In this document: positions 30,008 through 58,173 of the stretch, in pieces
Numbering within the stretch: position 1 is the first letter of the stretch
How the letters are laid out: the number at the start of each line of letters is the position of its first letter
Origin: Jannaschia sp. CCS1
Lineage (GTDB): Bacteria; Pseudomonadota; Alphaproteobacteria; Rhodobacterales; Rhodobacteraceae
Length of the DNA stretch: 64,000 bases
Reading direction: 5' to 3'
NCBI RefSeq assembly: GCF_000013565.1
Contig: NC_007802.1
Span: forward strand, 1,674,001-1,738,000
Position numbers and translations under genes: made by a program
The notes under the pieces: model-generated
What the model was told of the DNA's origin: nothing
What the model saw: the letters and a program-made list of their open reading frames with translations, nothing else
Databases searched by the model: none

Positions 30008-30076
30008 AAATCCCTTGCAAGGGATTTGCCAGATCCTTGCAAGGATCTCGCCCAGGCTTTTGCAAAAGCCTGGGCG
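30008..30076. repeat. Tandem palindrome array A (TTGCAA core)
   Basis: Three perfect palindromes in a row. A1 is 30008-30027 (half AAATCCCTTG), A2 is 30031-30048 (half AGATCCTTG), A3 is 30049-30076 (half CGCCCAGGCTTTTG, a 28-bp perfect dyad). All share the centre TTGCAA but have unrelated arms. The array starts 8 bases past the DUF924 stop and precedes lpd on the same strand. No U-run follows, so it is not a canonical terminator. Confidence 0.85.
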
Positions 30077-30172
30077 CGTGCGGGTGCGTCGCCATGCAAT
30101 TTCTGCCGTAAGCCATGCGTTTCGCGCAACCCGGCCTGCGACCTAGCGTCAATTGTCGCCCTTGGGGAATTG

Positions 30173-30188
30173 GTTTAACGTTGAACAA
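30173..30188. promoter_or_regulatory. Candidate operator shared by lpd and pdhA (copy 2)
   Basis: GTTTAACGTTGAACAA, identical to the copy at 856-871, ending 38 bp before the lpd start. The preceding bases (TTGGGGAATTG here, TTGGAATA there) are also similar. Confidence 0.55.
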
Positions 30189-30226
30189 ACGCAGAAACTG
30201 ATATTCCAGACCCGGAGACTTCGCCA

Positions 30227-31624
30227 ATGGCCGCACAAAACTTCGACCTCATAGTCATCGGAGCGGGCCCGGGCGGCTACGTCGCGGCGATCCGGGCCAG
30301 CCAGCTTGGCCTGAAGACGGCAATTGTCGAGCGCGAACATATGGGTGGGATCTGCCTGAACTGGGGCTGTATCCCCACCAAAGCCATGCTGCGCAGCTCC
30401 GAGGTCTTCCACCTGATGCACCGCGCGAAAGAGTTCGGACTGTCCGCCGATGGCATCGGGTATGACCTTGATAAGGTCGTGGACCGCTCCCGCAAGGTGG
30501 CCAAGCAGCTGTCGGGCGGCGTGGCGCATCTGATGAAGAAGAACAAGATCACCACGATCATGGGGGAGGCGACGATCCCCGCCAAGGGCAAGGTTTCCGT
30601 CAAAACCGACAAGGGCACCGAAGAGCTGACCGCCAAGAACATCATCCTCGCCACCGGCGCACGCGCCCGCGAACTTCCGGGGCTGGAGGCGGACGGCAAG
30701 CGGGTCTGGACCTACAAGGCTGCCCTGACACCGCCGCACATGCCGAAGAAACTGCTGGTGATTGGCTCCGGCGCCATCGGCATCGAGTTCGCCAGCTTCT
30801 ACAACACGCTTGGCGCCGACACGACCGTGGTTGAGGTCATGGACCGCGTTCTGCCCGTGGAAGATGCGGAGATCAGCGCGTTTGCCAAGAAGAGCTTTGA
30901 GAAGCAGGGGATGAAGATCCTGCAAAAGGCGATGGTCAAACAGCTGGACCGCGCCGATGACAAGGTGACGGCGCATATCGAGATCGGCGGCAATGTCGAA
31001 AAGCAGGACTTTGATACCGTTATCTCTGCCGTTGGTATCGTCGGCAATGTCGAAAATCTCGGGCTGGAAGACCTCGGCGTGAAGATCGACCGCACCCATG
31101 TGGTGACCGATGAATATTGCCGGACCGGCGTCGACGGGCTTTATGCCATAGGGGATATCGCGGGCGCGCCGTGGCTGGCGCATAAGGCGTCCCACGAAGG
31201 GGTCATGGTGGCGGAGCTGATCTCCGGCAAGAACAATGTCCATCCGATCAAGCCCGAAAGCATCGCGGGCTGCACCTATTGCCATCCCCAGGTCGCCTCT
31301 GTCGGGCTGACCGAGGCGAAGGCGAAGGAGCAGGGTTACAAGATCAAGGTTGGTCGCTTCCCCTTCATCGGCAACGGCAAGGCGATTGCCCTGGGTGAGC
31401 CGGAGGGCATGATCAAGACGATTTTCGACGAGAAAACCGGAGAACTTCTGGGCGCCCATATGGTCGGCGCGGAGGTGACGGAGCTGATCCAGGGCTATGT
31501 CGTGGGTCGGCAGCTGGAGACCACGGAGCAGGACCTGATGGAGACGGTCTTCCCGCATCCGACCCTGTCAGAGATGATGCATGAATCGGTGCTGGATGCC
31601 TATGATCGCGTGGTTCATATTTGA
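30227..31624 (+). CDS. lpd: Dihydrolipoyl dehydrogenase (E3)
   Basis: FAD enzyme that reoxidises the dihydrolipoyl groups of 2-oxoacid dehydrogenase complexes and reduces NAD. The 465-residue protein has the FAD dinucleotide fold VIGAGPGGYVAAIRASQLG, the redox-active disulfide GICLNWGCIPTKA, the NAD fold VIGSGAIGIEFASFYNTLG, and the C-terminal catalytic FPHPTLSEMMHESVL with His and Glu of the active-site dyad. GGAG precedes the ATG by 9 bases. The shared operator candidate upstream suggests that this E3 serves the pyruvate dehydrogenase complex encoded from pdhA. Confidence 0.95.
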   Translation: MAAQNFDLIVIGAGPGGYVAAIRASQLGLKTAIVEREHMGGICLNWGCIPTKAMLRSSEVFHLMHRAKEFGLSADGIGYDLDKVVDRSRKVAKQLSGGVAHLMKKNKITTIMGEATIPAKGKVSVKTDKGTEELTAKNIILATGARARELPGLEADGKRVWTYKAALTPPHMPKKLLVIGSGAIGIEFASFYNTLGADTTVVEVMDRVLPVEDAEISAFAKKSFEKQGMKILQKAMVKQLDRADDKVTAHIEIGGNVEKQDFDTVISAVGIVGNVENLGLEDLGVKIDRTHVVTDEYCRTGVDGLYAIGDIAGAPWLAHKASHEGVMVAELISGKNNVHPIKPESIAGCTYCHPQVASVGLTEAKAKEQGYKIKVGRFPFIGNGKAIALGEPEGMIKTIFDEKTGELLGAHMVGAEVTELIQGYVVGRQLETTEQDLMETVFPHPTLSEMMHESVLDAYDRVVHI

Positions 31625-31711
31625 CCGGCCAAGCGGGGTCTCAAGGTTACAACAGGGGGTCAAGCCCCTGATACTAAAATATAATCGTATTATAGTATAA
31701 GAATAAAAGAA

Positions 31712-31747
31712 GGGCGCCAGGATCGCAGGATCATCTGGCGCCCTTTT
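31712..31747. terminator. Bidirectional intrinsic terminator between lpd and the vWA gene
   Basis: Stem GGGCGCCAG (31712-31720) with CTGGCGCCC (31735-31743), preceded by an A-rich stretch and followed by TTTT, so it can serve both convergent genes. The 31660-31710 interval before it is strikingly AT-rich. Confidence 0.85.
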
Positions 31748-31770
31748 ACTGTGTGGGCCCTCAATCGCCG

Positions 31771-34700
31771 TTACTGAACCGTCAGCGGCTGCTCATGGGC
31801 GGGCGTGTTGCCCATGTCGAGGAAGTAGCGCAGCATGTACTCGCCCGGTTCCTCGGGGAGGGTCACGGTCAGGGACGGCCCCTCGGACGTGTAGGTGAAA
31901 TTGCGCCACCGATCCGATCCGGTGCCACCCACGCGGCCCACGGCAATGAAATCTCCGTCGAAATTCGGCCCGCTCCAAGTGACCGGCAATTCAGACCCCG
32001 CGGGCGCTGCGCGCGGCGCGTCCAGACGGATCGGGTGGGGCAGGACGGTGAAGGGCTGTTCATGCAGGGCGGTCGTGTCGCTGTCGATGAAGTAGCGCAG
32101 CACATAATCGCCCGCGATGGGCGGCACCTGAAGTTGCAGCGGGGATCCTTCCGACGTGCGGGTGTAGCTGCGCCACCGGTCGGACCCGGTGCCGCCCGCA
32201 ACGCCCAAGGCAATGAAATCATCGGGATAATCCGGCCCGGTCCAGGCCACCTCTATCCTCTCGGCGGCCAATGCGCTGGCCGGAGCGGTGATGCTGGCAG
32301 GGGGCGCGGTCAGGGTGATCTGCGCCTCGGCCAGTTCCGCCCGATCCTGGCGCAGGAAGTAGCGCACCACATAGGTGCCCGCCCGGCCCGGCATCTGCAA
32401 CCGCACCGGATTGCCGTCGCGGGTGTAGGCGTATTGACGCCAGCGATCGCTGCCGGTGCCGTTCGCGGGACCGATGCCGATGTAATCATCCTCGGCATTC
32501 GGCCCGATCCAGACCACGTCGATGATGCTGCCCGCCACGGCGGTCGCGGGCAGGGTGAGGGAGGCCTCCAGTTCCGTGATCTCAATCGGCACCGAGGTCA
32601 GGCGCGTGCGATCCTGACCCAGCGCATATTCGATCACATAGGCCCCAGGCTCCACCGGCATCTGCAATTGCACCGGAGAGCCGCTATCCACGCGCGCCGT
32701 CTCTGCGAAGCGGTGATAGCCGTCTGCCCCGACACGGGTAATGGCAATGAAATCATTGGCATATGCGGGCCCGGTGAAGCCAATCTCGATCACACTCGCC
32801 GCAGTGGCAGAGGCGGGTGCGGTGAGGGTCGCGGACAATTCGGTGATCGTGATCGGCACCGTGGTCAGCGCCGTGCGGTCCTGACCCAATGCGTATTCCA
32901 GCATGTAGGCGCCGGGTTGTGTCGGCATTTGCAGGCGCACGGGGTTGCCTTCGCTGGTCCGCGTCGTCTCGCTGAAGCGGTGGTAGCCTTCTGCGTTGAG
33001 CGGCGTAATCGCGATGAAATCGCCGTCATACCCCGGCCCGGTCCAGCCGATTTCGGCGACAGATCCTGCGATGGCGGAGGCGGGGCCTGTCAGGGTCGCG
33101 CCAAGATCCGTGATGGTGATGGGTTGGGACACGAGCCCCACGCGGTCCTGACCCAGCACGTATTCCAGAACGTATTCGCCGGGTTCGGTCGGCATTTGTA
33201 GCGTCAGCGGGTTGCCATCGCTGAGCCGCGTGGTCTGATCGAAGCGGTGATAGCCCTCCCCGCCGACACGGGTGATGCCAATGAAATCATTGCCGTAATT
33301 CGGGCCGGTCCAGCCGATTTCGACCGACGAGCCCGCCACGGCGCTGGCAGGTGCGGTCAGGCTGGCCTCGGGCTGGGTGACGGTGATGGGGGCGGTGGTG
33401 ATGGCGGTGCGGTCCTGTCCTTCCACATATTCCACGATGTAACTGCCCGGGACGACCGGCATCAGCAGCGACAGGGGGGAGCCTTCACTGGTGCGGGTTG
33501 TGTTGGCAAAGCGGTGATATCCCTCGCGGCCCACCTGCGTGATCGCGACGAAATCATTGCCATAATCCGGCCCGGTCCAGGCAACCTCGATGGTGGAGCC
33601 AGCCACGGCGGTGGCGGGGACCGTCAGGGTGGCTGCGGCAGGTGTGACGGTGATCGGGACGGAGCTGACGCGGATGCGCCCTTCGCCCAGAACATATTCC
33701 AGCACATACTCACCGGCGGCGGATGGCATCAGCAGGTTGAGGGGGGAGCCTTCGCTGATGCGCGTGGTGTTGGCGAAGCGGTGATAGCCCTCTGCGTCGG
33801 CATCGGTGATGCCAATGAAGTCGGCATCGTTGCCCGGGCCGGTCCAGGCCAGTTCAATCGTGGAGCCCGCGACGGCGGTGGCCGGTGCCGTAATGGCGGC
33901 CACCTCTTCGACCACATTGACCAGCGCGCGGGCGAGGATGACGCCGTCCTGATGCATGCGGTAGCGGACTTCGTAGGTTCCGGCCTCTGCCGGAGCGGTC
34001 AGCGACACAGTGGGGCCGTCCGAGGTGGGGCGGCGGCTGGCCGCATAGCCGTTGGTGGTGGCGTCCGGCGCGATGATCACGATCATGTCGTTGGGATAAT
34101 CCGGGCCGGTCCAGCTTACGTCGAACTGGCTGCCGATGGTCACCTCCTGCGGGACCTCCAGCGTCGCCGTCACGGGCGTGGACAGGATCGGAGTGCGCGC
34201 GATCACCTGGCGGGTGGTGGCGTCCGTGTAGCGGATCTCGAACGGGCCCTCGGCGGCGGGCATCCGGACGGTCGCGGGGTTGGTGCCCGCCTCGACTTGG
34301 GTGGGGTTCACATAATCTGTCACCGGCGCGCCCACCGGCCCGAGGGAGATGGTATCGCCCGCATTGGCCGGACCGTCCCAACCCACTTGGATCAGGGACC
34401 CCATGGGCGCTTGCGCCGGGGCGGTCAGGGTTGCGGTGGCGACGGGTTCGGGGAAGACGACGATAATCTCACGGGGCTGGTCGACGATGACGAAATCCGC
34501 GCTTTGCTCGATTTCCTGCGCGGTCCAATAGGCGGTCACGCGGTAGGCCCCGCGCGTCAGCAGGAAGGTTGCGGGGTTGGTCGTGACGGGGTTGGACATC
34601 AGCGGCTCGATATCCCAGACCACCGGATCGGTGATCGTGACGCCGCCGACGCTGCCGATGCGGGCGATGAAGTCGACCTCCACGGCCAGGGCGGGCAGAG

Positions 34701-35841
34701 GGATGATGACCTCCTGCGCGGTGTTGGGCGCGACGCTGAAGCGCGCCTCGTGCCGGGTGCCCGCGTTTTCGCGCAGGACCTCAAGGCGGTAATCGCCCGG
34801 CAGAAGCGCGACATTGCCGCCGGGGGCGGTGACCGGCCCGAGGATAGCCGTGTCGGCCGCGTCAAAGAGGGTCCAGGCGAGGGGTGAGGCGGGCACGGAC
34901 ATGTCCGGCTCCACCCGTGCGGTGAAGGTGATCGGGCTGGTCTCGATGATCGGAGGCATGGCGACAACGATCAGGTCGGTCTGGCCGTCGATCACGGTGA
35001 AGGAGGTCTGGTAGGTCTGCGGGCCGTCGGGCTCCGTCCGCGTGGCTTGCGCGATGTAGGTGCCGGGGAACAGCGACGCATCAATGGCCGGGCCGGGAGT
35101 GCCGGTGCTGACGACATCGCCGTCGGCGCCCAGAAGCGTCCAGGTCACGGGCCGCGTCGGCAGGGTGCCCTGGGGCAGCACCTGCGCCTCGATCCGCATG
35201 GGCGTGGGCAGGATCGCGACGACCTGTTCAAGCGCCTGGCTCAGCTCGGTGGCGTTGTCGGCGGTCAGGAACTGACCCCCGGTATTGTCGGCGATGCACT
35301 GCATCTGCGCGCGGGCCTCCGGCTCGGACGCGACGTCAAACCCGATGACATGGGCGGTAAAATCAACGCCGGTGGCCTCCAGCTCTGCGGCAATGGCACA
35401 GGGGTCCGGGTTACAATTCTCGATCCCGTCGGACACGAGGATCACGGTCGCGGCCTCCTCGGTGGAGCGCAGGCTTTGCGCGGCGGCAATAACCGCATCC
35501 GTCATCGGCGTGCGACCGCGCGGGTTAATCGCGTTAACCGCGTCCAGAATACGGCCCTGCGTGCCCGGCGCGGGGGCGACAATCGTCTCGATATCCGTGC
35601 AGCTGCCCCGCTGGCGATGGCCATAGACCGTTAGCCCAAGCGACACATCATCGGCCATATCCGCCAGCATCTCTGCGATCACCTCGCGGGCGATGACGAT
35701 CTTGTTCACCCCGTCGATCTGCCCCCACATCGAGCCCGACCCGTCCAGCACAAGGATCGTATTGGGCCGGTCCGTGGACTGCGCAAGGGCAGCAAGCGGC
35801 AACAAAAGAAGGGTGACGAGGGCAATCAGAAAAGCGCGCAT
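31771..35841 (-). CDS. Secreted von Willebrand factor A protein with ten tandem beta-sandwich repeats
   Basis: A 1356-residue exported protein. The signal peptide is MRAFLIALVTLLLLPLAALA. A vWA domain (about 22-215) has the MIDAS motif DGSGSMW (Asp33, Ser35, Ser37), a distal ILVSDGIENC and a probable Cys pair. A 250-residue beta-rich linker follows. From about residue 470 there are ten repeats of about 89 residues with the pattern LTAPASAVAGSxIEVxWTGP, then NDFIAIT, EGYHRFxxTTR, SEGSP and PGxYxLEYxLGQDR. There is no C-terminal anchor or sorting signal. Metal-dependent adhesion or matrix binding in the envelope is inferred. ATG 35841 is chosen because the signal peptide starts there. Convergent with lpd. 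Confidence 0.85.
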   Translation of the reverse strand: MRAFLIALVTLLLLPLAALAQSTDRPNTILVLDGSGSMWGQIDGVNKIVIAREVIAEMLADMADDVSLGLTVYGHRQRGSCTDIETIVAPAPGTQGRILDAVNAINPRGRTPMTDAVIAAAQSLRSTEEAATVILVSDGIENCNPDPCAIAAELEATGVDFTAHVIGFDVASEPEARAQMQCIADNTGGQFLTADNATELSQALEQVVAILPTPMRIEAQVLPQGTLPTRPVTWTLLGADGDVVSTGTPGPAIDASLFPGTYIAQATRTEPDGPQTYQTSFTVIDGQTDLIVVAMPPIIETSPITFTARVEPDMSVPASPLAWTLFDAADTAILGPVTAPGGNVALLPGDYRLEVLRENAGTRHEARFSVAPNTAQEVIIPLPALAVEVDFIARIGSVGGVTITDPVVWDIEPLMSNPVTTNPATFLLTRGAYRVTAYWTAQEIEQSADFVIVDQPREIIVVFPEPVATATLTAPAQAPMGSLIQVGWDGPANAGDTISLGPVGAPVTDYVNPTQVEAGTNPATVRMPAAEGPFEIRYTDATTRQVIARTPILSTPVTATLEVPQEVTIGSQFDVSWTGPDYPNDMIVIIAPDATTNGYAASRRPTSDGPTVSLTAPAEAGTYEVRYRMHQDGVILARALVNVVEEVAAITAPATAVAGSTIELAWTGPGNDADFIGITDADAEGYHRFANTTRISEGSPLNLLMPSAAGEYVLEYVLGEGRIRVSSVPITVTPAAATLTVPATAVAGSTIEVAWTGPDYGNDFVAITQVGREGYHRFANTTRTSEGSPLSLLMPVVPGSYIVEYVEGQDRTAITTAPITVTQPEASLTAPASAVAGSSVEIGWTGPNYGNDFIGITRVGGEGYHRFDQTTRLSDGNPLTLQMPTEPGEYVLEYVLGQDRVGLVSQPITITDLGATLTGPASAIAGSVAEIGWTGPGYDGDFIAITPLNAEGYHRFSETTRTSEGNPVRLQMPTQPGAYMLEYALGQDRTALTTVPITITELSATLTAPASATAASVIEIGFTGPAYANDFIAITRVGADGYHRFAETARVDSGSPVQLQMPVEPGAYVIEYALGQDRTRLTSVPIEITELEASLTLPATAVAGSIIDVVWIGPNAEDDYIGIGPANGTGSDRWRQYAYTRDGNPVRLQMPGRAGTYVVRYFLRQDRAELAEAQITLTAPPASITAPASALAAERIEVAWTGPDYPDDFIALGVAGGTGSDRWRSYTRTSEGSPLQLQVPPIAGDYVLRYFIDSDTTALHEQPFTVLPHPIRLDAPRAAPAGSELPVTWSGPNFDGDFIAVGRVGGTGSDRWRNFTYTSEGPSLTVTLPEEPGEYMLRYFLDMGNTPAHEQPLTVQ
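31774..34440 (-). repeat. Ten in-frame ~267-bp repeats in the vWA gene
   Basis: Each unit encodes about 89 residues. Units 3-7 share EGYHRF in the middle loop, units 8-10 share GTGSDRW at the same place, and units 1-2 are the most divergent. The subgroup pattern suggests growth by internal duplication. Confidence 0.85.
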
Positions 35842-36017
35842 GAAAACATCCGGTTGAGGCAATGGGGCAATGGGCCGGGCAGAAATCGACCACGTGCCGC
35901 AAGGGTAACGTGTTCCGCGGCCAGCGCAAAGGGCTGGATTTCCCGCATTTTAGCGCGCGGCGGCCCCGGATGGGCTTGGCGATTGACGGGCGCGTGCAAA
36001 CAGGGGATGCAGGCCCC

Positions 36018-37136: not shown

Positions 37137-37143
37137 AACGTTC
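37129..37143 (+). promoter_or_regulatory. LexA (SOS) box of uvrA, alphaproteobacterial type
   Basis: GTTCCTGAAACGTTC is an exact GTTC-N7-GTTC direct repeat, the known LexA target of alphaproteobacteria, 68 bp before the uvrA start and overlapping the last codons of the MFS gene. Confidence 0.8.
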
Positions 37144-37210: not shown

Positions 37211-40084
37211 ATGGCCGAGCTGAAGAACATCGAGGTGCGCGGTGCGCGCGAGCATAACCTCAAGGATATCGACGTCGATATCCCGCGCGATCAGCTGGTG
37301 GTGATCACCGGTCTGTCGGGCTCCGGCAAGTCGTCGCTGGCCTTTGACACGATCTATGCGGAGGGGCAGCGGCGTTATGTTGAGTCGCTGTCGGCCTATG
37401 CGCGGCAATTCCTTGATATGATGGAGAAACCGGACGTCGACCATATTTCCGGCCTGTCGCCCGCGATCTCGATTGAACAGAAGACGACGTCGAAAAACCC
37501 CCGCTCCACCGTCGGCACCGTGACCGAGATTTACGACTACCTCCGCCTGCTGTTCGCGCGCGCGGGCACGCCCTACAGCCCCGCCACCGGCCTGCCAATT
37601 GAGGCGCAACAGGTCCAGGACATGGTCGACCGCGTCATGGCGATGGAGGAGGGGACGCGCGCCTATCTGTTGGCCCCGATCATCCGCGACCGCAAAGGTG
37701 AATACCGCAAGGAATTCACGGAGTTGCGCAAGCAGGGCTTCCAGCGCGTGAAGGTGGACGGGCAGTTTTATGAGCTGGACGAGCCGCCCACGCTGGACAA
37801 GAAATTCCGCCACGACATTGACGTGGTGGTGGACCGGATCGTGGTCCGCGACGGGGCGGAGACGCGGCTGGCGGACAGTTTCCGCACGGCGCTGGACCTG
37901 GCCGACGGGATCGCGGTGCTGGAAACGGCTGTGAAAGAGGGCGAGGACGCTGAGCGCTTCACCTTCAGCGAAAAATTTGCCTGTCCGCAGAGCGGCTTCA
38001 CCATCCCCGAGATTGAGCCGCGATTGTTCTCCTTCAACGCCCCGTTCGGCGCGTGTCCGTCCTGCGACGGGCTGGGTGTGGAGCTGTTTTTCGACGAAGG
38101 TCTGATGGTGCCCGACAAGGCGCTGAGCCTCGAAGACGGCGCGATTGCCCCGTGGCGCAAGGGGAAATCTCCGTATTTCGTTCAGACGATCGAGGCGATT
38201 GCCAAGCACTACGGCTTTGCGGCCAAGACCAAGTGGAAGGACCTGTCGCCCGATATTCAGCAGGTGTTTCTGCGCGGGTCGGGTGAGGAGGAGATCAAGT
38301 TCCGCTACGACGAAGGCGGGCGCGTTTACCAAGTGGAACGCACGTTCGAGGGTGTGATCCCCAATATGGAGCGTCGGTATCGCGAGACCGATAGCGCCTG
38401 GATTCGCGAGGAATTTGAGCGGTTCCAGAACAACCGCCCCTGCGGCGATTGCGGCGGGTTTCGCCTGCGGCCCGAGGCGTTGGCCGTGAAGATTGGTCCA
38501 TCGGACAGGCTCCTCCATGTGGGGCAGGTCGTGCAGATGTCGATTGCGGAGGCGTTGGCCTGGGTCGACACGGTCCCCGACGCGCTGAGCAAACAGAAGA
38601 ATGAGGTCGCCCGCGCGATCCTGAAGGAAATTCGCGAGCGGCTGGGGTTCCTGAACAATGTGGGCCTGCAATACCTGACCCTGTCGCGCAACGCGGGCAC
38701 GCTGTCCGGTGGCGAGGCGCAGCGGATCCGGCTGGCATCCCAGATCGGGTCCGGCCTCACGGGCGTGCTCTATGTGCTCGATGAGCCGTCCATCGGCCTG
38801 CACCAGCGCGACAATGACCGGCTGTTGACGACGCTGAAAAACCTGCGCGATCAGGGCAATACGGTGATCGTGGTGGAACATGATGAGGAAGCGATCCGGG
38901 AGGCGGACTACGTCTTCGATATCGGTCCAGGGGCGGGCGTCCATGGCGGGCAGGTGGTGGGGCACGGCACGCCCGCCGATCTGATCGCGAATTCCAAATC
39001 CATCACCGGCGATTATCTGGCAGGCCGTAAGGAAATCGCCGTGCCGGTCAAGCGGCGCAAGGGCAACAAGAAGAAGCTGCAGGTGGTGAAGGCCACGGGC
39101 AACAACCTGCAAAACGTGACCGCAGATTTCCCGCTGGGGCAGTTTGTCTGCGTCACCGGCGTGTCCGGCGGCGGTAAATCGACCCTGACGATTGAGACCT
39201 TGTTCAAAACGGCGTCGATGAAGCTGAACGGCGCGCGGCAGACGCCTGCGCCGTGTGAGACGATCAAGGGGCTGGAGCATCTGGACAAGGTGATCGACAT
39301 CGACCAGCGCGCCATCGGGCGGACGCCGCGGTCGAACCCCGCCACCTATACCGGGGCCTTCACACCGATCCGCGACTGGTTTGCGGGCCTGCCGGAATCG
39401 AAAGCGCGCGGGTACAAGCCGGGGCGGTTTTCGTTCAACGTCAAAGGTGGCCGGTGCGAGGCCTGTCAGGGCGACGGCCTGATCAAGATCGAGATGCACT
39501 TCCTGCCCGACGTCTACGTCCAATGCGAGACCTGCAAAGGCGCGCGCTACAACCGCGAAACGCTGGAGATCAAATTCAAGGGCAAATCCATTGCCGACGT
39601 GTTGGATATGACGGTGGAGGACGCGCAGGATTTTTTCAAGGCGGTGCCGAGCATCCGCGAAAAGATGGATGCTCTGGTGCGGGTGGGTCTGGGCTACATC
39701 AAGGTCGGTCAGCAGGCCACGACGCTGTCGGGCGGAGAGGCGCAGCGGGTGAAACTATCGAAGGAGCTGGCTAAACGCTCAACCGGGCGCACGCTCTATA
39801 TTCTGGATGAACCGACCACGGGTCTGCATTTTGAGGACGTGCGCAAGCTGTTGGAAGTGCTGCATGAATTGGTGGATCAGGGGAATTCTGTTCTGGTGAT
39901 TGAACACAACCTCGATGTGGTGAAGACCGCCGACCATATCATCGATATCGGGCCGGAGGGCGGCGATGGCGGCGGGCAGATCGTGGCCAAGGGCACGCCC
40001 GAACAGGTGGCAAAGGTGCCCGAGAGCCATACCGGGCGCTACCTCGCCCCGATGCTGGATGCGCGAAAGCACGCGGCGGAATAG
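37211..40084 (+). CDS. uvrA: Excinuclease ABC subunit A
   Basis: Damage-recognition ATPase of nucleotide excision repair. The 957-residue protein has the family start [20 protein letters not shown], Walker [15 protein letters not shown], the [19 protein letters not shown] stretch, ABC signature [16 protein letters not shown], then in the second half [14 protein letters not shown], the zinc module CEACQGDG...CETCKG, and [18 protein letters not shown] with [14 protein letters not shown]. The second Walker A reads GGGKS rather than GSGKS. The SOS box upstream predicts DNA-damage induction. No terminator is visible in the 33 bp before the convergent gene. Confidence 0.97.
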
Positions 40085-47514: not shown

Positions 47515-47567
47515 ATGGGTCGTTTTCCACCCATCGCGCAGGCCGTCGTGGGTGGAAATTGACCCAT
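47515..47567. promoter_or_regulatory. Long imperfect inverted repeat upstream of the TAXI gene
   Basis: 19-base arms at 47515-47533 (ATGGGTCGTTTTCCACCCA) and 47549-47567 (reverse complement differs at two positions) surround 15 bases. It lies about 140-195 bp upstream of the binding-protein start, a distance typical of enhancer sites for NtrC-family regulators, and 10 bp from palindrome array B. Confidence 0.5.
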
Positions 47568-47576: not shown

Positions 47577-47645
47577 ACCATTGTCTTGCAAGACAATGGT
47601 CCAGAGCCTTGCAAGGCTCTGGTAAAACCCTTGCAAGGGTTTTAC
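47577..47645. repeat. Tandem palindrome array B (TTGCAA core)
   Basis: Three perfect palindromes directly abutting. B1 is 47577-47600 (half ACCATTGTCTTG), B2 is 47601-47622 (half CCAGAGCCTTG), B3 is 47622-47645 (half GTAAAACCCTTG). B3 includes the TAA stop codon of the DctD-like gene. The next gene on the same strand is the TAXI binding protein. Confidence 0.88.
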
Positions 47646-48985
47646 GCGCGGTCGGCGGGACGAAAGTCGTCGCGCGCAAGCCCGTGTTTCTGCATCTTCT
47701 CGTAGAGGGCTTTGCGGCTGATCCCCAGCGCCTCATATGTCGCCTTGATCGAGCCGTTCTGGGCGCTGAGTGTAGCGGCAATCAGGCTGCGTTCATGGGC
47801 GGCCATCTGATCGGCAAGCCGTCCCGTCTCCGACGCCGCGCCGCCATGTCCCAGCCCCAGGATCGCGCGCTCGGCCTCATTGCGCAGCTCGCGGATATTG
47901 CCGGGCCAGTCGCGTGAGGCGAGATCTGCCAGCATATCGGGCGAGACCGCAGGCACCGGACGGTTGTGCCGGGCGGACGCATTGGCCAGCAGGATCTGGA
48001 AGAGGCCGGGAATGTCTTCGCGCCGCTCCGCCAGCGGCGGCATCCGCAGGGTCACAACGTTGAGGCGGTAGAGCAGATCATCCCGAAACGCGCCCTCTGC
48101 CGCCGCTTGCGCCAGATCGCGTCTGGAGGCCGCGATGACGCGCAGATCAAGGGCAACGGCTTCATTCGTGCCCAGGGGGGTGATCGCGCGGTCCTGCAGG
48201 GCGGTCAGCAATTTGCCTTGCAGGGGCAGGGGGATGCTGTCGATCTGATCCAGAAACAGGGTGCCACCGCGGGCGTGCTGGAACTTGCCGTAACGCTCCC
48301 GTGTGGCGCCTTCAAAGGCACCTGGAGCGTGGCCAAACAGCTCACTTTCCATCAGCGTCTCGGGCAGGGCGGCGCAATTGATCGCGACAAAGGGCCTGGC
48401 CGCCCGGGCCGAGGCCGCGTGGAGCGCGCGCGCCGCCACCTCCTTGCCCGTGCCGGTGGCCCCTTCGATCAACACATCGGTTTCCGTCTCGGCCACCGCC
48501 TTCAATTGCGCGCGCAGCTGCGCCATGGCGGTGGAGCGCCCGATAAGTTGTGCGGAGATCGGATCCGCGCTGCCATCTGCGGCCTGCGCCTTCAGGGCGC
48601 GCACCTCCATCGTCAGGCGGCGCTTGTCCAGCGCGCGGCGGATCACTTGCACCAATCGGTCCGGCGCGTAGGGTTTTTCGATGAAGTCATAAGCCCCCAG
48701 CCGCATGCTGTGCACCGCCAGGTCCACATCACCGTGCCCCGTCACCAATATCACTGGCAGATCCGGGTCGCGCCTGAGCGCTTCGGCCATCAGGGCGGTT
48801 CCGTCCATGCCGGGCATCCGGATATCTGTGACCAGCACCCCGGGAAAGGCGGGCGAAATGTGATCCAGGGCGGCCTCAGCCCGGGCGCAGGCAATGACCG
48901 GCAGATCGGCCAGTGACAGGGTCTGCTCGCCCGCGATCCGCAGATCAGGCTCATCATCGACGAAAAGGACGGGCGTTTGGGTCAT
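47642..48985 (-). CDS. NtrC/DctD-family response regulator with degenerate sigma-54 motifs
   Basis: A 447-residue regulator: receiver domain (1-120, phosphoacceptor Asp54 in VTDIRMPGMDG, Lys104 in EKPY), AAA+ domain (about 145-375) and a C-terminal Fis-type helix-turn-helix (AALSAQNGSIKATYEALGISRKALYEKM, pieces over 405-435). Walker A is EGATGTGKE. The sigma-54-contact loop GAFTGA reads GAFEGA (222-227), and Walker B reads LFLDQI, with Gln247 in place of the catalytic Glu. Both changes argue against normal sigma-54 activation. Coupled to the sensor kinase by an ATGA overlap; probably controls the adjacent TRAP genes. Confidence 0.9.
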   Translation of the reverse strand: MTQTPVLFVDDEPDLRIAGEQTLSLADLPVIACARAEAALDHISPAFPGVLVTDIRMPGMDGTALMAEALRRDPDLPVILVTGHGDVDLAVHSMRLGAYDFIEKPYAPDRLVQVIRRALDKRRLTMEVRALKAQAADGSADPISAQLIGRSTAMAQLRAQLKAVAETETDVLIEGATGTGKEVAARALHAASARAARPFVAINCAALPETLMESELFGHAPGAFEGATRERYGKFQHARGGTLFLDQIDSIPLPLQGKLLTALQDRAITPLGTNEAVALDLRVIAASRRDLAQAAAEGAFRDDLLYRLNVVTLRMPPLAERREDIPGLFQILLANASARHNRPVPAVSPDMLADLASRDWPGNIRELRNEAERAILGLGHGGAASETGRLADQMAAHERSLIAATLSAQNGSIKATYEALGISRKALYEKMQKHGLARDDFRPADRA

Positions 48986-52331: not shown

Positions 52332-52345
52332 CATGACCTGAAACC

Positions 52346-52385
52346 AAAAAGGCCGCCCCTCGCACACGCGGTGGGCGGCCTTTTC
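52346..52385. terminator. Bidirectional intrinsic terminator
   Basis: Stem GGCCGCCC (52351-52358) with GGGCGGCC (52373-52380), preceded by AAAAA and followed by TTTTCC, between the convergent PPC-domain gene and tpiA. Confidence 0.85.
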
Positions 52386-52401
52386 CTTGACGTGCGGGCG
52401 G

Positions 52402-53148
52402 TCAGGCGGCGGACAGGGCGGCGATAATTCCGCCGAAATCCGACGCCTTCAACGATGCGCCACCGACCAGCGCGCCGTCCACATTGGACACCGCAAAGAT
52501 CTCTGCGGCATTGCCGGGCTTGACCGATCCGCCATAGAGCAGCGGGATATCATTGGCGGCGCTGCCCCGGCGCGCGGCCAGTTCAGACCGGATGTGATCA
52601 TGGACCTCGGCAATCTGTTCCAGCGTCGGCGTGCGGCCCGTGCCGATGGCCCAGACGGGCTCATAGGCCACGACGATCTGCGCGGGCGTGGCGCCGGTGG
52701 GGATGGAGCCTGCCAACTGGCTGGAGACGACGTTCAGGGTCACATTCGCATCACGCTCGGCTTCGGTTTCGCCGACGCAGATGATCGCGATCAGGTTGGC
52801 GTCAATGGCGGCCGTGACCTGGGCCGCCACATCTTCGCTGCGCTCGCCATGGTCTGCGCGTCGTTCCGAATGGCCAAGGATCACGTGGCTCGCGCCCGCG
52901 TCGGCCAGCATCGCCGCCGACACGTCGCCAGTGTGCGCGCCCGACGCGGCCGTATGGCATGTCTGGCCGCCGACATAGAGGTCCATCAACCCCGCGCGCT
53001 TGGCCATCGGCGCAATCAGCGTCGCGGGCGGGCACAGCAAGACGTCGCAATTGGCCGCCGCAACAGCCTCGCCCAAAGCGTCCACCTCGGCCAAATCGGC
53101 CTCTACCCCGTTCATCTTCCAATTGCCTGCCGCCAGTTTCCGTGCCAT
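52402..53148 (-). CDS. tpiA: Triosephosphate isomerase
   Basis: Interconverts dihydroxyacetone phosphate and glyceraldehyde 3-phosphate. The 248-residue TIM barrel has the substrate-binding AAGNWKMNG (Asn and Lys), catalytic His in VILGHSERR, catalytic Glu in AYEPVWAIGTG with the phosphate loop, and the GGSVKPGNAAE phosphate-binding end. GGAGG lies 6 bases before the ATG. It completes the triose-phosphate part of glycolysis begun by the fda/gap/pgk genes 45 kb away. Divergent from the oxygenase gene across 74 bp. Confidence 0.96.
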   Translation of the reverse strand: MARKLAAGNWKMNGVEADLAEVDALGEAVAAANCDVLLCPPATLIAPMAKRAGLMDLYVGGQTCHTAASGAHTGDVSAAMLADAGASHVILGHSERRADHGERSEDVAAQVTAAIDANLIAIICVGETEAERDANVTLNVVSSQLAGSIPTGATPAQIVVAYEPVWAIGTGRTPTLEQIAEVHDHIRSELAARRGSAANDIPLLYGGSVKPGNAAEIFAVSNVDGALVGGASLKASDFGGIIAALSAA

Positions 53149-53222
53149 CGCCGCCTCCAGAGTTCATTTGTTCCCGTGGTCGCACCCACGGCACAGGCGG
53201 TCAACCCGACAGGAGGTCCCCG

Positions 53223-54143
53223 ATGATCCCGCATATCGACGCAAACGCCCTCGCCGCCCGTGACCCGGACGCCCTGGCCGCCACCAAGATCGGGGTGGAG
53301 GATGTGGGCTTCCTGACCCTTCACAACACGGCGCTGACGGCGGATCAGGTGCGTGCCACGCTTGCCGCATATCGCACCTTCTTCAAAGGCGATGTCGCCA
53401 ACAAGCAGGCGGTGAACATGAATGTCACAGGCTCCAATCGCGGCTGGGGCGGGGCGGGGTCCGAACAGGTCGATCCTGACGCCAACGCGGACTACAAGGA
53501 GGTCTTCGATTGCGGGGTGGAGCTGCCCAAGGACGATCCCTTCGCGCGGTTGCCCGTCTATGCGCCCAACCAATGGCCCGCGCGGCCCGACGGGTTTCAG
53601 CAGGCGGTGGAGGGGTATTTCACCGCCGCCCGCGTGGTGTGTCTGGACCTGTTGCAAGGCATTTCCGCGGCCATCGGCGCGGATCCCACCTATTTCGCGG
53701 ACAAGTTCGCCAAGCCGATGGCGCTTCTGCGCGGCAATTATTACCCGGAACGGCCCGATTGGGCGGGGGAGAAGGATTTCGGCATCGCGGCGCACACTGA
53801 TTACGGCTGCCTGACGCTTTTGGCGACCGATGGCCAGCCGGGTCTTGAGGTGCAGATGCGCGACGGGGCGTGGGTGCCGGTGCAGGCCGAGCCGGGCACC
53901 TTCATCATCAATTTCGGTGAAATGCTGGAGATGTGGACCGCCAATCCCGACGGCGGTGGCCAGATCCGCGCCACGCCGCACCGGGTGGTGGGCGGCGCCC
54001 ATGAGCGGATCTCCATCCCGCTATTCTTCAACCCGGTCTATGATACCAATGTCACGCCGCCGGGCACGCCACGCCTGAGTGCGGGCGAGCACCTCTCAAG
54101 ACGGTATCAGGAAACGTATACGCATTTGCAGGACACGGAGTGA
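53223..54143 (+). CDS. 2-oxoglutarate/Fe(II)-dependent oxygenase, isopenicillin N synthase family
   Basis: A 306-residue soluble non-heme iron oxygenase. The N-terminal DIOX_N-like part has VEDVGFLTLHNTALTADQVR; the jelly-roll has HTDYGCLTLLATDGQPGLEVQ (read from His-x-Asp), the distal His in ATPHRVVGGAHERISIPLFFNP and the Arg that would hold 2-oxoglutarate in HERIS. The substrate is unknown; relatives act on amino acids, ethylene formation or peptides. AGGAGG lies 7 bases before ATG 53223. It is divergent from tpiA and its stop abuts that of the convergent membrane protein gene with no gap. Confidence 0.88.
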   Translation: MIPHIDANALAARDPDALAATKIGVEDVGFLTLHNTALTADQVRATLAAYRTFFKGDVANKQAVNMNVTGSNRGWGGAGSEQVDPDANADYKEVFDCGVELPKDDPFARLPVYAPNQWPARPDGFQQAVEGYFTAARVVCLDLLQGISAAIGADPTYFADKFAKPMALLRGNYYPERPDWAGEKDFGIAAHTDYGCLTLLATDGQPGLEVQMRDGAWVPVQAEPGTFIINFGEMLEMWTANPDGGGQIRATPHRVVGGAHERISIPLFFNPVYDTNVTPPGTPRLSAGEHLSRRYQETYTHLQDTE

Positions 54144-54509
54144 TTACAGCAGCTGGCGGTAGAGGATGATGGCGCTGGCGAGCAGGATGGTCAGGCCAAT
54201 GCGAGGGCGATCCGGGCCTGCATTGTCGCGCGCCTCGGTCAGGGCCATGTGCGTGCCATAGGCCAGACCCGCCGGAAACATCAGCGCGATGAAGGCCACG
54301 ACCGACGGCATTCCGATAAACGCGCCCACGAGGACCAGCAGAACAAGCGCGATCATGGCGGGCACGAGGTGGAACAGAAGCTCCACCACCGCCGCAACAT
54401 GGCGGCCCTTGTCCTGCCTGAACATGAGCCTGGCCCAGGCGAGGAAGGTCAGGGCCGCGTAGGTCCACAGCAGCGTGGCTCCGGCCTCGATGATCGCGAT
54501 GGGGGTCAC
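54144..54509 (-). CDS. Small membrane protein, third of a three-gene set
   Basis: A 121-residue protein from GTG 54509, one base after the stop of the preceding gene. It has about four hydrophobic helices (residues 4-26, 38-58, 60-82, 100-120) and short charged loops (MFRQDKGRH, EARDNAGPDRPR). I recognise no family. The GTG start is chosen because the frame further upstream would run through the neighbour in another frame. Part of a compact operon with the two genes before it. Confidence 0.6.
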   Translation of the reverse strand: MTPIAIIEAGATLLWTYAALTFLAWARLMFRQDKGRHVAAVVELLFHLVPAMIALVLLVLVGAFIGMPSVVAFIALMFPAGLAYGTHMALTEARDNAGPDRPRIGLTILLASAIILYRQLL

Positions 54510-54510
54510 G

Positions 54511-54921
54511 TCAATACATCGCGTTGATGGCGGCGAACCCGGCATAGGTGATCGCCAAGGTGACAAGGCCGATAATGGAGATGGGGCGCAGATACGGCAG
54601 TTTCGGCCACAGGGTGAAGACGGCGAAGCAGACAAAGGCAGCGCTGGCGATCCACCAGGCGGGGCCATCGGAGCCGTTGCTGAGGGCGCGCGGAACGCCG
54701 CCGCCGGTGCCCACGATGATCCCGTTGGCATCCATGCGCATCGGGCCGTCCGACAGGTCTGCGAAATCCACGGTCCCGCCGATCCAGAGACCTGCCAGCA
54801 ACAGCGGCACGACCGTCAACGGATGGCGCCGGGTCGCCGTGATCAGCGCGGTCGCGAAGAGTGTCGCGACGGTCGCCACCTGGCCGACGACGTAGGCAAT
54901 GAGGGCGATGATAACGAGCAT
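54511..54921 (-). CDS. Small membrane protein, second of a three-gene set
   Basis: A 136-residue protein with an N-terminal helix (residues 2-26), a second (33-50), a polar middle with a glycine/aspartate-rich stretch (DGPMRMDANGIIVGTGGGVP), and two C-terminal helices (about 90-106, 112-132). No family is recognised. Its ATG (54921) directly abuts the stop codon of the upstream gene, so the genes are almost surely co-translated. Confidence 0.6.
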   Translation of the reverse strand: MLVIIALIAYVVGQVATVATLFATALITATRRHPLTVVPLLLAGLWIGGTVDFADLSDGPMRMDANGIIVGTGGGVPRALSNGSDGPAWWIASAAFVCFAVFTLWPKLPYLRPISIIGLVTLAITYAGFAAINAMY

Positions 54922-55350
54922 CTACCACACGACCGCAAGGGGGATGGCGAGGGCGATCATCAGCGCCGCGGCGGCCACGAGCGTTGCGATGTCCGGCACA
55001 CGGGGGCGCAGCCGGGTTTTGAGCGCGGAGCGGGTCCAGGTCACGCAGAGCCACGCAACCGCAAAGATCCACACAAACGACCAGACGCCGGACGTGCGCA
55101 GGGCTGTGGGGATTGCACCGGGGGCGAACGTCTCCGCCGCGCCAAGCACCGCGACAAGGAGGACGGAGGCCAGCAGTAGGATATGGAGCGCATGCAGGTC
55201 GGGGAACCGGCGTAGTTTGAGGATGGCGCTGATCAGGATGAGGAGCGGGATCAGGCGGATCAGGGTTGCGCCCGCAAGCACAAGCGCGAATTCAGGCCCG
55301 GAAAGGCCGAAGCCGAAATCATCGGGGGCGGAGTATGCGTCGTGATCCAT
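54922..55350 (-). CDS. Small membrane protein, first of a three-gene set
   Basis: A 142-residue protein with a polar start (MDHDAYSAPDDFGFG) and four hydrophobic helices (about 19-42, 54-72, 86-105, 120-141), no conserved motif that I recognise. It starts 45 bp after the mlaF stop on the same strand. The set of three may be the last part of the pyrC-pyrE-dnaB-alr-mlaE-mlaF run, or may use a promoter in that 45-bp gap. No usable ribosome site is visible before the ATG. Confidence 0.6.
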   Translation of the reverse strand: MDHDAYSAPDDFGFGLSGPEFALVLAGATLIRLIPLLILISAILKLRRFPDLHALHILLLASVLLVAVLGAAETFAPGAIPTALRTSGVWSFVWIFAVAWLCVTWTRSALKTRLRPRVPDIATLVAAAALMIALAIPLAVVW

Positions 55351-55395
55351 GGGGAGGGTGTGGCGCGAGTGCTGGCCGGGTGCAAGGATTAGGTG

Positions 55396-56133
55396 TCAGC
55401 GCAGCGTTTTGATCGGACCTGCGGAATGCCCGCCGATGAACTGGCGCAGATAGGGATCGTCGCTGGCATCCATGTCGGCGACGGGGCCATGCCAGCGGAT
55501 TTGCCCCTCATGGAGCATGGCGACCGTCGTAGCGATGGCGCGCGCGGAGGTCATGTCGTGGGTGATGGTGATGGTCGTGGCCCCGATCTCAGACACGATC
55601 TCCCCGATCAGGTCGTTGATCACGCCGGACATGATCGGGTCGAGGCCGGTGGTGGGCTCATCAAAAAAGACGATCTCCGGCTCGGACGCGATGGCCCGCG
55701 CGAGGCCTGCGCGTTTTTGCATGCCGCCCGAGAGCTCAGAGGGGTAGAGGTCCGCGGTCTCAGGCGGCAGGCCCACGCGGCGCAGTTTCTCGATGGCCTT
55801 GTCGCGGGCATCGCGGCGGGGCGTTTTGGTTTGCAGCAGGCGGAAGGCGACGTTTTGCCAGATCGGCATGGAATCAAAGAGCGCGGCCCCCTGGAAGAGC
55901 ATGCCGAAACGGTCAAGGAAGCGCGCATCCGGGGCTTGGCCGTCGATCCTGATGGTGCCTGCATCCGGCGTGATCAGGCCGAGGATGCATTTGAGAAGCA
56001 CGGACTTGCCCGTGCCCGAGCCGCCAATGACGACGAGGCTTTCGCCTTTGGCCACGGTCAGCGAGACATTCTGCAGGACGTGGTTCTGGCCGAAGGATTT
56101 GGTGAGGCCGTTGAGGGAGATCATCGGGGTCAT
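55396..56133 (-). CDS. mlaF: MlaF-type ABC transporter ATP-binding protein
   Basis: The ATPase of the MlaFEDB-type lipid transporter that moves phospholipids between the membranes. The 245-residue protein has Walker A GGSGTGKS, signature LSGGMQKRAGLARA, Walker B IVFFDEPTTGLDP and H-loop ITHDM. The SGGMQKR variant is typical of MCE-linked ATPases. ATG 56124 (MISLNGLTKSFG) is an equally possible start. It follows mlaE by 109 bp; the MCE protein gene (mlaD) is not next to it. Confidence 0.9.
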   Translation of the reverse strand: MTPMISLNGLTKSFGQNHVLQNVSLTVAKGESLVVIGGSGTGKSVLLKCILGLITPDAGTIRIDGQAPDARFLDRFGMLFQGAALFDSMPIWQNVAFRLLQTKTPRRDARDKAIEKLRRVGLPPETADLYPSELSGGMQKRAGLARAIASEPEIVFFDEPTTGLDPIMSGVINDLIGEIVSEIGATTITITHDMTSARAIATTVAMLHEGQIRWHGPVADMDASDDPYLRQFIGGHSAGPIKTLR

Positions 56134-56210
56134 TGCCTGGATCTTCCATCGCGCCCGTGGGGGCCGGCTCCCACATCCGCGACACCGTGGGGGCCAGCCC
56201 CCACACCCCC

Positions 56211-56230
56211 GGGATATTTGAAGAACGGGG
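56211..56230. repeat. Dispersed intercistronic 20-mer
   Basis: GGGATATTTGAAGAACGGGG, identical to 60695-60714, between mlaE and mlaF, 13 bases past the mlaE stop. Beside it are two hairpin-forming units (GTGGGGGCCGGCTCCCAC at 56157 region, GTGGGGGCCAGCCCCCAC at 56186 region). Confidence 0.7.
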
Positions 56231-56242
56231 AAAGGGGGCGGG

Positions 56243-57025
56243 TCATGCGGAAAAGAACGCCTCTGTCAGGAGATAATTGGCCGCGAGAATCAGGATCGAG
56301 GCGGAGACGACGGCCTGCGTGGTGGCGCGCCCGACGCCGCGCGCGCCACGGCCCGAGTTCATGCCGTGGTAGCAGCCCATGAGTGCCACGATGAAGCCGA
56401 AGACGGCCCCCTTGACCAAGCCCGACGTGACGTCCCGGATGGTCAGGAAGTCACGGGTGTTGGACAGGTACGCTGCCGGGTTGAAGTCCAGCCGGGAGGT
56501 GGAGACCAGGTAGCCGCCGAAGATGCCGATACTGTCGCCGACGGCCACCAGCACCGGCAGGGAGAGCGTCGCCGCGATCAGGCGCGGCGCGGTGAGGTAC
56601 TTCATCGGGTGAGTGGACAGCGTGCGCAGGGCGTCGATCTGCTCGGTCACTTTCATCGTGGCGATCTCGGCGGCAATGGCCGCGGCCACGCGACCGGCGA
56701 CCATGAGGCCGCCAAGGACCGGCCCAAGCTCCCGCGCGATGCTGATGGCGACGATCTGGGGGACCACGGCTTCCGCATTGAACCGCGCGCCGCCGGCGTA
56801 GATCTGAAGTGCCAGCGCGCCACCAGTGAAAAACGCCGTGAGGCCGACGACGGGGAGGCTGAGCCAGCCGATGGTGAGAAACTGCCGCGCGGTCTCGCGG
56901 ATGTAGAAGGGCGGTGTGGCGAGGTGGCGGAGGGCATCGAGCGCGAACAGGGCGATCTGGCCGATGGTGGCCAGGGCGATGAGGGTCGCGCGGCCAAGCG
57001 CGCCGAAGGGCGCGGTCAGGGTCAC
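56243..57025 (-). CDS. mlaE: MlaE-type ABC transporter permease
   Basis: Inner-membrane permease of an MCE/Mla lipid transport system. The 260-residue protein has about five to six helices with the family core [58 protein letters not shown] (about residues 94-133, with the conserved ExG/TEQIDAL coupling segment) and a C-terminal [24 protein letters not shown]. Its ATG overlaps the alr stop by 4 bases, so expression is tied to alanine racemase, and mlaF follows. Confidence 0.92.
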
Positions 57026-58050
57026 GGGGTTAACGCGCGCCGGTAGCGAGGGCCCAGGGAGGTGAGGATTTCATAGCCGATGGTGCCCGCCGCCTCGGCC
57101 AGTTGATCGATGGTCTGATGGGGCCCGAGAATGTCGAGCGCCTCCGGTGGCGTGTCGCAGTCCGTGACGTCGACGGTCAGCAGATCCATGGACACCCGGC
57201 CGACCAGAGGGCAGGGCGTATCACCGTCCCAAAGCGTGGCCTTGGACGACAGGGCGCGGATGAGGCCATCGGCATAACCGGCTGATAGTGTTGCAATTTG
57301 ACGGGGCGTGGTTGCGGTGTAGGTGGCGCCATAGCCGATTGTAGCGCCCGGGTTGACACAGCGGATCTGGATGACGGGAAGGGACAGGCGAACGACCGGA
57401 CGGGCACCCGCGAAGGGCAGGCCGCCGTAGAGGCCCACGCCCGGGCGGATGAGGTCAAAGTGGTAGTCTGGACCCATCAGCGTGCCACCGGTGGCAGCCA
57501 GAGACCGGGGCGTTTGGATGCCGTCGGTCAGCGCACGGAACTGCGCCAGCTGTGCGGCATTTTGTGGATGATCCGGCGCATCGGCGCAGGCAAGATGGGA
57601 CATCAGAAGCGTGGCATCGTGGAGCTGATCGCGCAGGGCGGGCCAATCGGCGGGCTGTACGCCGAGGCGGTGCATGCCGGTGTCGAGCTGGATGCCGTAG
57701 GGGTGGCCGGGCAGGACATGGCGATGGCGCTGAACCTGCTTGGGCGAATTCAGCATGGGGGTGAGGTGGGCGTCGCGGATCAGCGGGGTATCGCCCGCCA
57801 TGTGACCTGCGAAGACGTTGATTTCCGGCGCAGGTCCAAGGACCTGGCGCAGGCCCACGCCCTCTTCTGCCGTGGCAACGAAAAACTGGCAGGCACCAGC
57901 TTTGGCCAGTCCGGTGCTGACCAGCCCTGCCCCGAGCCCGTAGCCGTCGGCTTTGACAACAGCCGCCGTTGCGCCGGGACCAAGCCGGTCCAGGGTGCGG
58001 TAATTGGCGACAAGTGCGCCGAGATCGACGGTGAGAGTTCCGGTGGCCAT
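57022..58050 (-). CDS. alr: Alanine racemase
   Basis: PLP enzyme making D-alanine for peptidoglycan. The 342-residue protein has the PLP lysine motif [12 protein letters not shown], the middle segments [11 protein letters not shown] and [13 protein letters not shown], the catalytic Tyr in [10 protein letters not shown] and the C-terminal [14 protein letters not shown]. Start ATG 58050 matches the family N-terminus ([16 protein letters not shown]). The 128 bp before it, back to the dnaB stop, are mostly filled by palindrome array C. The stop overlaps the mlaE start. Confidence 0.93.
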
Positions 58051-58082
58051 AGCGGGTTCGTGCGATCTAACGGCGATCGCGT

Positions 58083-58173
58083 CAAGGCTCTTGCAAGAGC
58101 CTTGGCACGTCCTTGCAAGGACGTGAGACACCGCTTTGTAAAGCGGTGGGGAAAACTCTTGCAAGAGTTTTCC
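58083..58173. repeat. Tandem palindrome array C (TTGCAA core)
   Basis: Four dyads in a row. C1 is 58083-58104 (half CAAGGCTCTTG), C2 is 58106-58125 (half CACGTCCTTG), C3 is 58129-58148 (arms CACCGCTTT/AAAGCGGTG, centre GT in place of GC), C4 is 58150-58173 (half GGAAAACTCTTG). C4 begins 5 bases past the dnaB stop on the minus strand. Confidence 0.88.

Follow-up and report, generated by a model that had tools for sequence, protein, structure and literature searches.

Why should rows of perfect palindromes with one constant core stand at the ends of genes, and what keeps them perfect? The question is raised by a window of 64,000 nucleotides from Jannaschia sp. CCS1 (contig NC_007802.1, positions 1,674,001 to 1,738,000), in which a first-pass annotation made from the letters alone had described three intergenic loci with ten dyads, nine of them perfect, 18-28 bp long and centred on TTGCAA. 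All ten are found at these places, and in the tenth (58129-58148) an intact stem encloses TTTGTAAA. In 30 dinucleotide shuffles of the window, TTGCAA-centred palindromes of at least 14 bp arose 0.03 times on average and never more than once. We propose with moderate confidence, from sequence evidence, that these strand-symmetric arrays of two to five short hairpins act as 3' boundary elements of transcripts, ending or protecting them. In our overall verdict they look like an undescribed hairpin element marking transcript ends, or one that is kept perfect by DNA replication.

The window arrays belong to a real, dispersed family. In the 4.40-Mb genome (two contigs), the spaced double core TTGCAAN{14,26}TTGCAA matches 27 places, five of them clearly no dyads, against one for the backwards control, and the 20-mer pattern MANNNYYTTGCAARRNNNTK, which misses units with a different outer base, matches 45 places against none, 41 of the 45 being perfect dyads. 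The genome thus holds at least 41 perfect TTGCAA-centred dyads of 20 bp and none of these is solitary, each lying within 50 bp of the start of another match. The extent of the unit is best seen in 264 TTGCAA instances from five congeneric genomes, chosen by the core pattern only, paired arms not being required. Pairing reaches 97-100% at every position up to 10 from the centre and falls to 36% at position 11, while arms permuted between instances pair at 39-57% (positions 4-8 and 10). Position 9 is A in 262 of the 264, and neighbouring units are spaced by 22-23 bp in 156 of 163 pairs. Because pairing ends at position 10 and the spacing is this regular, the 18-28 bp palindromes of the window are 20-bp units, some of them extended. 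The close packing noted earlier holds as well, with slightly different figures: gaps between full palindromes are of 0-3 nt rather than 0-4, one pair shares base 47622, and 2-3 nt separate the units when these are taken as 20 bp. In a set of 200 instances from named Rhodobacterales the boundary is softer, with 91-100% pairing up to position 10, then 66% and 51% at positions 11 and 12, and A at position 9 in 169 cases. At G000:C2:4014925-4014944 we also observed a non-palindromic CAGATCCTTGCAAGGGATTT, in which the left half of one hairpin seems to be fused at the core to the right half of another, as though the stretch between two cores had been deleted.

To place the arrays among genes we collected them by perfect 6-bp stems, two hairpins and at least one TTGCAA unit, which gave 146 arrays of 2, 3, 4 and 5 hairpins in the loci retrieved, 93 of them in five genomes of the genus and 53 in named Rhodobacterales contigs, the latter from the 52 stretches with Rhodobacterales-type titles among at least 120 pattern-matched ones. 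Merging orthologous loci left 61 non-redundant arrays, of which 33 lie between tandem genes, 27 between convergent genes and a single one between divergent genes. Ordinary gaps of at least 40 nt in a 400-kb sample of the same genome distribute differently (122 tandem, 33 convergent and 58 divergent among 213). Between tandem genes the array begins at a median of 10 nt after the stop codon, and in convergent pairs the distance between stop and array is mostly no more than about 15 nt, running to several hundred nt in some; genes were called with our own codon-usage caller, so that some negative or very long distances are probably caller errors. The tabulated distances and strands bear out a position at gene 3' ends. 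The range of 0-8 bases first given for the window is accurate for array 1 (8 nt) and needs correcting for the DctD-like gene, whose stop codon (47642-47644) is overlapped by the palindrome at 47622-47645. An outer stem closing round the whole array was considered and rejected, the duplex energy between flanks (-10.91) being weaker than that of permuted partners (-11.57).

The arms evolve in an unusual way. Orthologous arrays align across genomes and genera, at a median identity of neighbouring proteins (own genome, matches of at least 50%) of 75% to the named set and 87-91% within the genus. Leaving aside the close pair G155/G156, 2132 of 2310 pair positions are unchanged between orthologues in the genus and 140 changed on both sides with pairing kept, against 23 changed on one side and 15 changed on both without pairing, whereas bases differ at 159 of 250 spacer positions and 647 of 1232 flank positions. 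These counts are not independent, since all pairs within a group were compared, and pairs with unequal hairpin number or spacing were dropped. In G155/G156, the closest pair, 567 of 570 pair positions are unchanged, two carry matched double changes and one, the outermost, a single change, while the spacers differ at 20 of 93 bases and the flanks at 51 of 288. The covariation expected from the first-pass annotation is thus present, and its view that selection acts on pairing and not on primary sequence is half right: arms do differ between positions and arrays, but those of one hairpin are conserved between orthologues far above the spacers. Nor are arms free to vary, as their repertoire is limited: 258 units share 57 different 7-nt arms.

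Counted once per column, there are 38 switches: 20 exchange A-U and G-C, and for the other 18 no route through G-U exists. Of the 38, 31 fall at positions 4-9 (14 of them unable to pass through G-U) against one non-pairing state, and seven at position 10 against eight non-pairing states; the hairpins were found by perfect stems, which hides unpaired states, and those differing from the first member of their group at more than two arm positions were left out. For Bacillus cereus terminators, excerpts of PMC5381666 give 79% A-U/G-C switches with G-U as the usual intermediate. The share in the arrays is lower (20/38, P about 0.001; 17/31, P about 0.003). Without the perfect-stem filter, in a count that drops TTGCAA sites with fewer than four of six arm pairs, only 9 of 2826 interior pairs are non-Watson-Crick and only three of these are G-U, a scarcity for which selection on pairing in one RNA strand alone does not account. 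U-tailed hairpins of the same genome and its congener G160 (26 hairpins) contain 40 G-U among 273 pairs, but the search that yielded them admits G-U and so inflates this number; ordinary 3' hairpins likewise give 14.4%.

The hairpins also follow a grammar. The centre is TTGCAA in 452 of 468 detected units, orthologues included, and asymmetric in nine (TTGAAA five times, TTGGAA three times, TTGTAA once), the others being the symmetric TTCGAA (three) and TTATAA (one) together with CTGAAG (two) and TTGCGA (one). In the 196 units of non-redundant arrays, asymmetric and symmetric variants number three each, plus one TTGCGA. The rate of asymmetry at the centre (9/468, against about 0.3% of pairs in the arms) leans towards a hairpin with an unpaired apex, with small numbers and different filters on the two sides. 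Arms are never equal within an array (0 against 5.0 expected by shuffling; 61 arrays, P 0.005, with 184 of 197 units usable because paired to 20 bp). This inequality is valid for the clade studied and is not universal: in genus g63 (G062) equal arms occur at four of seven pair places. Arrays of four hairpins are arranged in mirror order, weak-strong-strong-weak, with a G+C content of 0.71 and 0.71 in the inner two and 0.47 and 0.56 in the outer two; inner exceeds outer in 23 of 25 such arrays and equals it in one (P 2e-5). By eye, two other genera show the same order with outer TTCGAA and inner TTGCAA (L256, L260, L266), as does one array of the Jannaschia genome itself (L023:4866-4953), and two further genera carry pairs of 23-nt hairpins with GCA and TGC loops (L254, L255). 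In genus g3 (G002), at L255 ~1438-1530, such a pair with GCA and TGC loops follows a U-tailed, terminator-like hairpin.

How far does the family extend? Among 13 genomes of the genus, eight have at least one pair match (23, 28, 41, 16, 13, 35, 41 and 1), the single match being background because the backwards control gives one in each genome. In the family, matches occur in 49 of 149 genera, mostly a single one, near the control level. Scanning a genome collection for a triple core returned the stretches mentioned above, many of those without Rhodobacterales-type titles being Bacteroidales; among the matches listed, the named relatives carrying the same arrays are Rhodobacterales. Matches in Bacteroidaceae and Bacteroidales were rejected as members, since 19 sampled loci are near-identical repeats whose arms pair at background beyond 6 bp. 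Those of the Bacteroidaceae metagenome-assembled genome Horse_feces99 (L028, L034 and L041 among others) are tandem CCTTGCAAGGAGTT-like repeats at 22-bp spacing, with a nearly constant inner sequence and unpaired outer arms, and form a separate dispersed family with a TTGCAA core. Within the genus, presence varies from gap to gap. Behind dnaB an array is found in four of 13 genomes and none was seen within 260 nt in the other nine. Between the PBP1a gene and prfB, by eye, five of 13 genomes have an array and G152 has two related hairpins, the second with a mismatch, while G160, G157 and G154 have single unrelated hairpins with loops GGAA, GTTGTT and CGG. In both gaps, PBP1a-prfB and dnaB-alr, promoter-like sequence was seen by eye downstream of the array. 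The replacement of the array by unrelated hairpins in one and the same gap speaks for a role that can be filled by a hairpin.

What could this role be? Folding predictions turn the three window arrays into rows of hairpins at the dyads (z -4.2, -7.1 and -8.0); in array 1 the outer stem of the first hairpin is shifted. Past the stop codon, RNA from either strand would fold into successive hairpins of 8-10 bp, each with a UUGCAA apex, and this row would block 3'-to-5' exonucleases ahead of the promoter of the next gene or of an opposing gene; it may also aid termination, which would probably be Rho-dependent. Among the three roles first proposed, multi-hairpin transcript ends and exonuclease barriers fit the location better than targets of a dyad-binding protein, but sequence does not narrow the three to one. 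In Rhodobacter sphaeroides, excerpts of PMC7866481 report no shift to stabler upstream folding at 3' ends enriched in the wild type, and rarer unstructured sequence there, so that these data neither prove nor exclude exonuclease stops for a relative.

Several observations weigh against a boundary role. Five of the 13 genomes of the genus have no pair match at all, and four of 13 have no clear hairpin in the PBP1a-prfB gap by eye (a half-hairpin relic in G153, nothing seen in G150, G158 and G159); such empty gaps imply that the array is not indispensable. With 14-24 arrays found per genome there is no general need for it, and we rejected the idea that arrays are the general terminator of the genome, given this number and the coexistence of U-tailed single hairpins. 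Behind tandem arrays the U-run is absent, as the first-pass annotation had remarked (T fraction 0.01-0.23 at each of 16 positions). No polar order of the arms was detected in the direction of transcription (the first hairpin compared with the last, P 0.15 in 39 arrays and 0.25 in 12). The 23 one-sided changes and 15 unpaired double changes between orthologues count on the same side, and so does the scarcity of G-U, which amounts to 2 of 1572 stem pairs even in arrays between tandem genes, where an RNA function on one strand should tolerate it.

Other explanations would account for the near lack of G-U and for the missing polarity. The arrays could be targets at the DNA level: a protein that reads structure would bind them as extruded or single-stranded hairpins, recognising the TTGCAA apex and the A-T pair at nine bases from the centre, and gene ends would simply be where they are tolerated. 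Stems that are almost exclusively Watson-Crick, a sharp end of the unit at 10 bp with its nearly invariant A, the regular spacing and a mirror order without polarity all suit such a target. We nevertheless find it rather unlikely: no candidate protein was found in a search limited to the Y1_Tnp family, the boundary and the A at position 9 are less strict in the named Rhodobacterales, and unrelated single hairpins occupy one orthologous gap in three genomes. Cruciform extrusion, besides, requires negative supercoiling, which is expected behind the polymerase and not between convergent genes, precisely where 27 of the 61 arrays lie, against one between divergent genes. Alternatively, the palindromes could be kept perfect by template switching during replication (quasipalindrome correction) with little or no selected function, a mechanism published for RNA stems (excerpts of PMC8794818). 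The ratio of 31 paired switches to one unpaired state at positions 4-9 speaks for it, as do the 14/31 switches (18/38 overall) that cannot pass through G-U, compared with 21% in Bacillus cereus terminators (P about 0.001-0.004), and the two matched double changes against one single, outermost change in the closest genome pair. It is less at ease with position 10, where eight unpaired states face seven switches, and with orthologous arms far better conserved than adjacent bases; it gives no reason for an arm length of 10 bp, an unchanging core, A at position 9, occurrence in tandem, unequal arms within arrays or a position at gene ends. The perfect-stem search also hides unpaired states, of which the anchored count still finds 9 in 2826. 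As a sufficient account we judge it distinctly improbable. Both explanations would yield Watson-Crick-only stems and absent polarity, but neither the location nor the conservation of arms.

A further possibility is that the arrays are relics of mobile palindromes spread by a transposase, like the repetitive extragenic palindromes (REPs) and the bacterial interspersed mosaic elements (BIMEs) built from them. Their dispersed, extragenic, tandem mosaic would fit, and so would similar series of arms at different loci and presence or absence at orthologous gaps. However, no Y1_Tnp (RAYT-type) protein was found in the array-rich G000, G149, G151, G155 and G156, weak matches being restricted to G152 (below cut-off) and G153 (at cut-off), both with arrays; no fixed tetranucleotide occurs in the 12 flanking positions of the 61 arrays, and arms are conserved across genera, where relics would decay. 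We regard this origin as very unlikely. The least probable explanation, which we give hardly any credence, is that of tandem operators for a dimeric protein reading TTGCAA: constant core, dyad symmetry and regular spacing are those of such sites, but symmetric arm variation is not needed for them, and the arrays are at gene 3' ends and not at promoters.

Parts of these explanations may be combined with the boundary role that we favour. Tentatively, and as a possibility that we would not yet call probable, the arrays would form a new class of strand-symmetric element: mirror-ordered hairpins of fixed length whose arms change almost only in concert. Template switching or hairpin-limited conversion would maintain them as palindromes in the DNA, they would mark gene ends on both strands, and lineages across the family would have dialects of their own (TTGCAA; TTCGAA-outer/TTGCAA-inner; GCA/TGC triloop pairs). 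In any case, how perfect stems remain perfect can be studied cleanly in this natural system, because dozens of orthologous hairpins of equal length, with matched changes and few intermediates, could separate selection on RNA pairing from maintenance by template switching. If the arrays do end or protect transcripts, they would be a gene-end signal without a U-run, missed by terminator finders that rely on one.

The coordinates in the window are collected in Table 1. We take the gene after array 1 to be lpdA-like, and those after array 2 and beyond array 3 (alr) presumably are as named there; the label DUF924 comes from the first-pass annotation.

Table 1. Hairpin arrays of the window, their units and the genes upstream of them.
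Feature	Positions	Strand	Remarks
Array 1, three dyads	30008-30076	none	8 nt past the stop of the DUF924 gene, 150 nt ahead of a gene presumed dihydrolipoamide dehydrogenase-like
Array 1 unit, 20 bp	30008-30027		AAATCCC-TTGCAA-GGGATTT
Array 1 unit, 20 bp	30030-30049		AGATCC-TTGCAA-GGATCT; 18 bp paired
Array 1 unit, 20 bp	30053-30072		CAGGCTT-TTGCAA-AAGCCTG; pairing continues to 28 bp (30049-30076)
Array 2, three dyads	47577-47645		3' end of the DctD-like gene (- strand), overlaps its stop codon; upstream of a gene presumed TAXI-type receptor-like
Array 2 unit, 20 bp	47579-47598		CATTGTC-TTGCAA-GACAATG
Array 2 unit, 20 bp	47602-47621		CAGAGCC-TTGCAA-GGCTCTG; most frequent arm in the family
Array 2 unit, 20 bp	47624-47643		AAAACCC-TTGCAA-GGGTTTT
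Array 3, four dyads	58083-58173		Between dnaB (- strand) and a gene presumed alanine racemase-like; orthologue in three other genomes
Array 3 unit, 20 bp	58084-58103		AAGGCTC-TTGCAA-GAGCCTT
Array 3 unit, 20 bp	58106-58125		CACGTCC-TTGCAA-GGACGTG
Array 3 hairpin, 20 nt	58129-58148		CACCGC-TTTGTAAA-GCGGTG; stem intact, centre pair broken
Array 3 unit, 20 bp	58152-58171		AAAACTC-TTGCAA-GAGTTTT
DUF924 gene	29412-29999	+	Upstream of array 1
DctD-like sigma-54 response regulator gene	47642-48985	-	Upstream of array 2
dnaB-like helicase gene	58179-59684	-	Upstream of array 3; start from our gene caller

Downstream of array 2, as read along the DctD-like gene, and upstream of the TAXI-type receptor gene, an inverted pair TGGGTCGTTTTCCACCCA / TGGGTGGAAATTGACCCA occupies 47516-47566, possibly an activator site or an additional hairpin; in L202 and L216 the array of this orthologous group is likewise followed by a similar GGGTGGATTTCCACCC. 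At 37264-37283 a perfect 20-bp palindrome, GGATATCGACGTCGATATCC, unrelated to the TTGCAA family, lies within a called gene.

Rfam 15 covariance models gave no match at gathering score in the window and three further array loci, two matches beside array 3 being at chance level (E 0.3 and 0.43), and in the open-licence literature no title or abstract opening among the leading matches described a tandem TTGCAA hairpin element of Rhodobacterales. The arrays resemble REPs and BIMEs in being short extragenic palindromes, often in tandem mosaics, at gene 3' ends. In contrast to REPs, which have a conserved sequence with a GTAG or CGTC end and number more than 100 (features taken from excerpts of PMC2817692 and PMC3733652), they combine a constant centre with variable arms and number tens of units. 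Neither the conserved repeat nor such a tag is found (258 units; flanks of 61 arrays), and a RAYT gene (PF01797, E 0.001) was not found in five array-rich genomes, while five of 14 control genomes were positive. Without a conserved arm sequence, a fixed flanking tag or, in these five genomes, a RAYT-type transposase (REP-associated tyrosine transposase), the arrays are not REPs as defined so far.

With intrinsic (Rho-independent) terminators, bidirectional ones included, they share a stable hairpin just past the stop codon, the ability to serve convergent genes and compensatory changes in the arms; they differ in their tandem habit, fixed length and near lack of G-U, and the lack of an immediate U-run means that they are not classical terminators. 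U-tailed single hairpins do occur in the Jannaschia genome and in G160. The 400-kb sample of the Jannaschia genome shows no TTGCAA hairpin, which means little by itself because it covers none of the known array places, and in 40 kb of the window U-tailed hairpins are not in excess over shuffles (16 against 12.4, and 11 against 11.4). Inverted pairs of uptake sequences, which are used as terminators, likewise place a constant motif in 3'-end hairpins; their arms are constant, whereas in the arrays the apex is constant and the arms vary. Finally, perfect inverted repeats have been surveyed in 118,019 genomes, and excerpts of PMC13155455 report a general enrichment behind bacterial stop codons and conservation of arms near terminators. 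This much is therefore already known, and what the arrays add to it is the fixed unit, the tandem grammar and the missing wobble.

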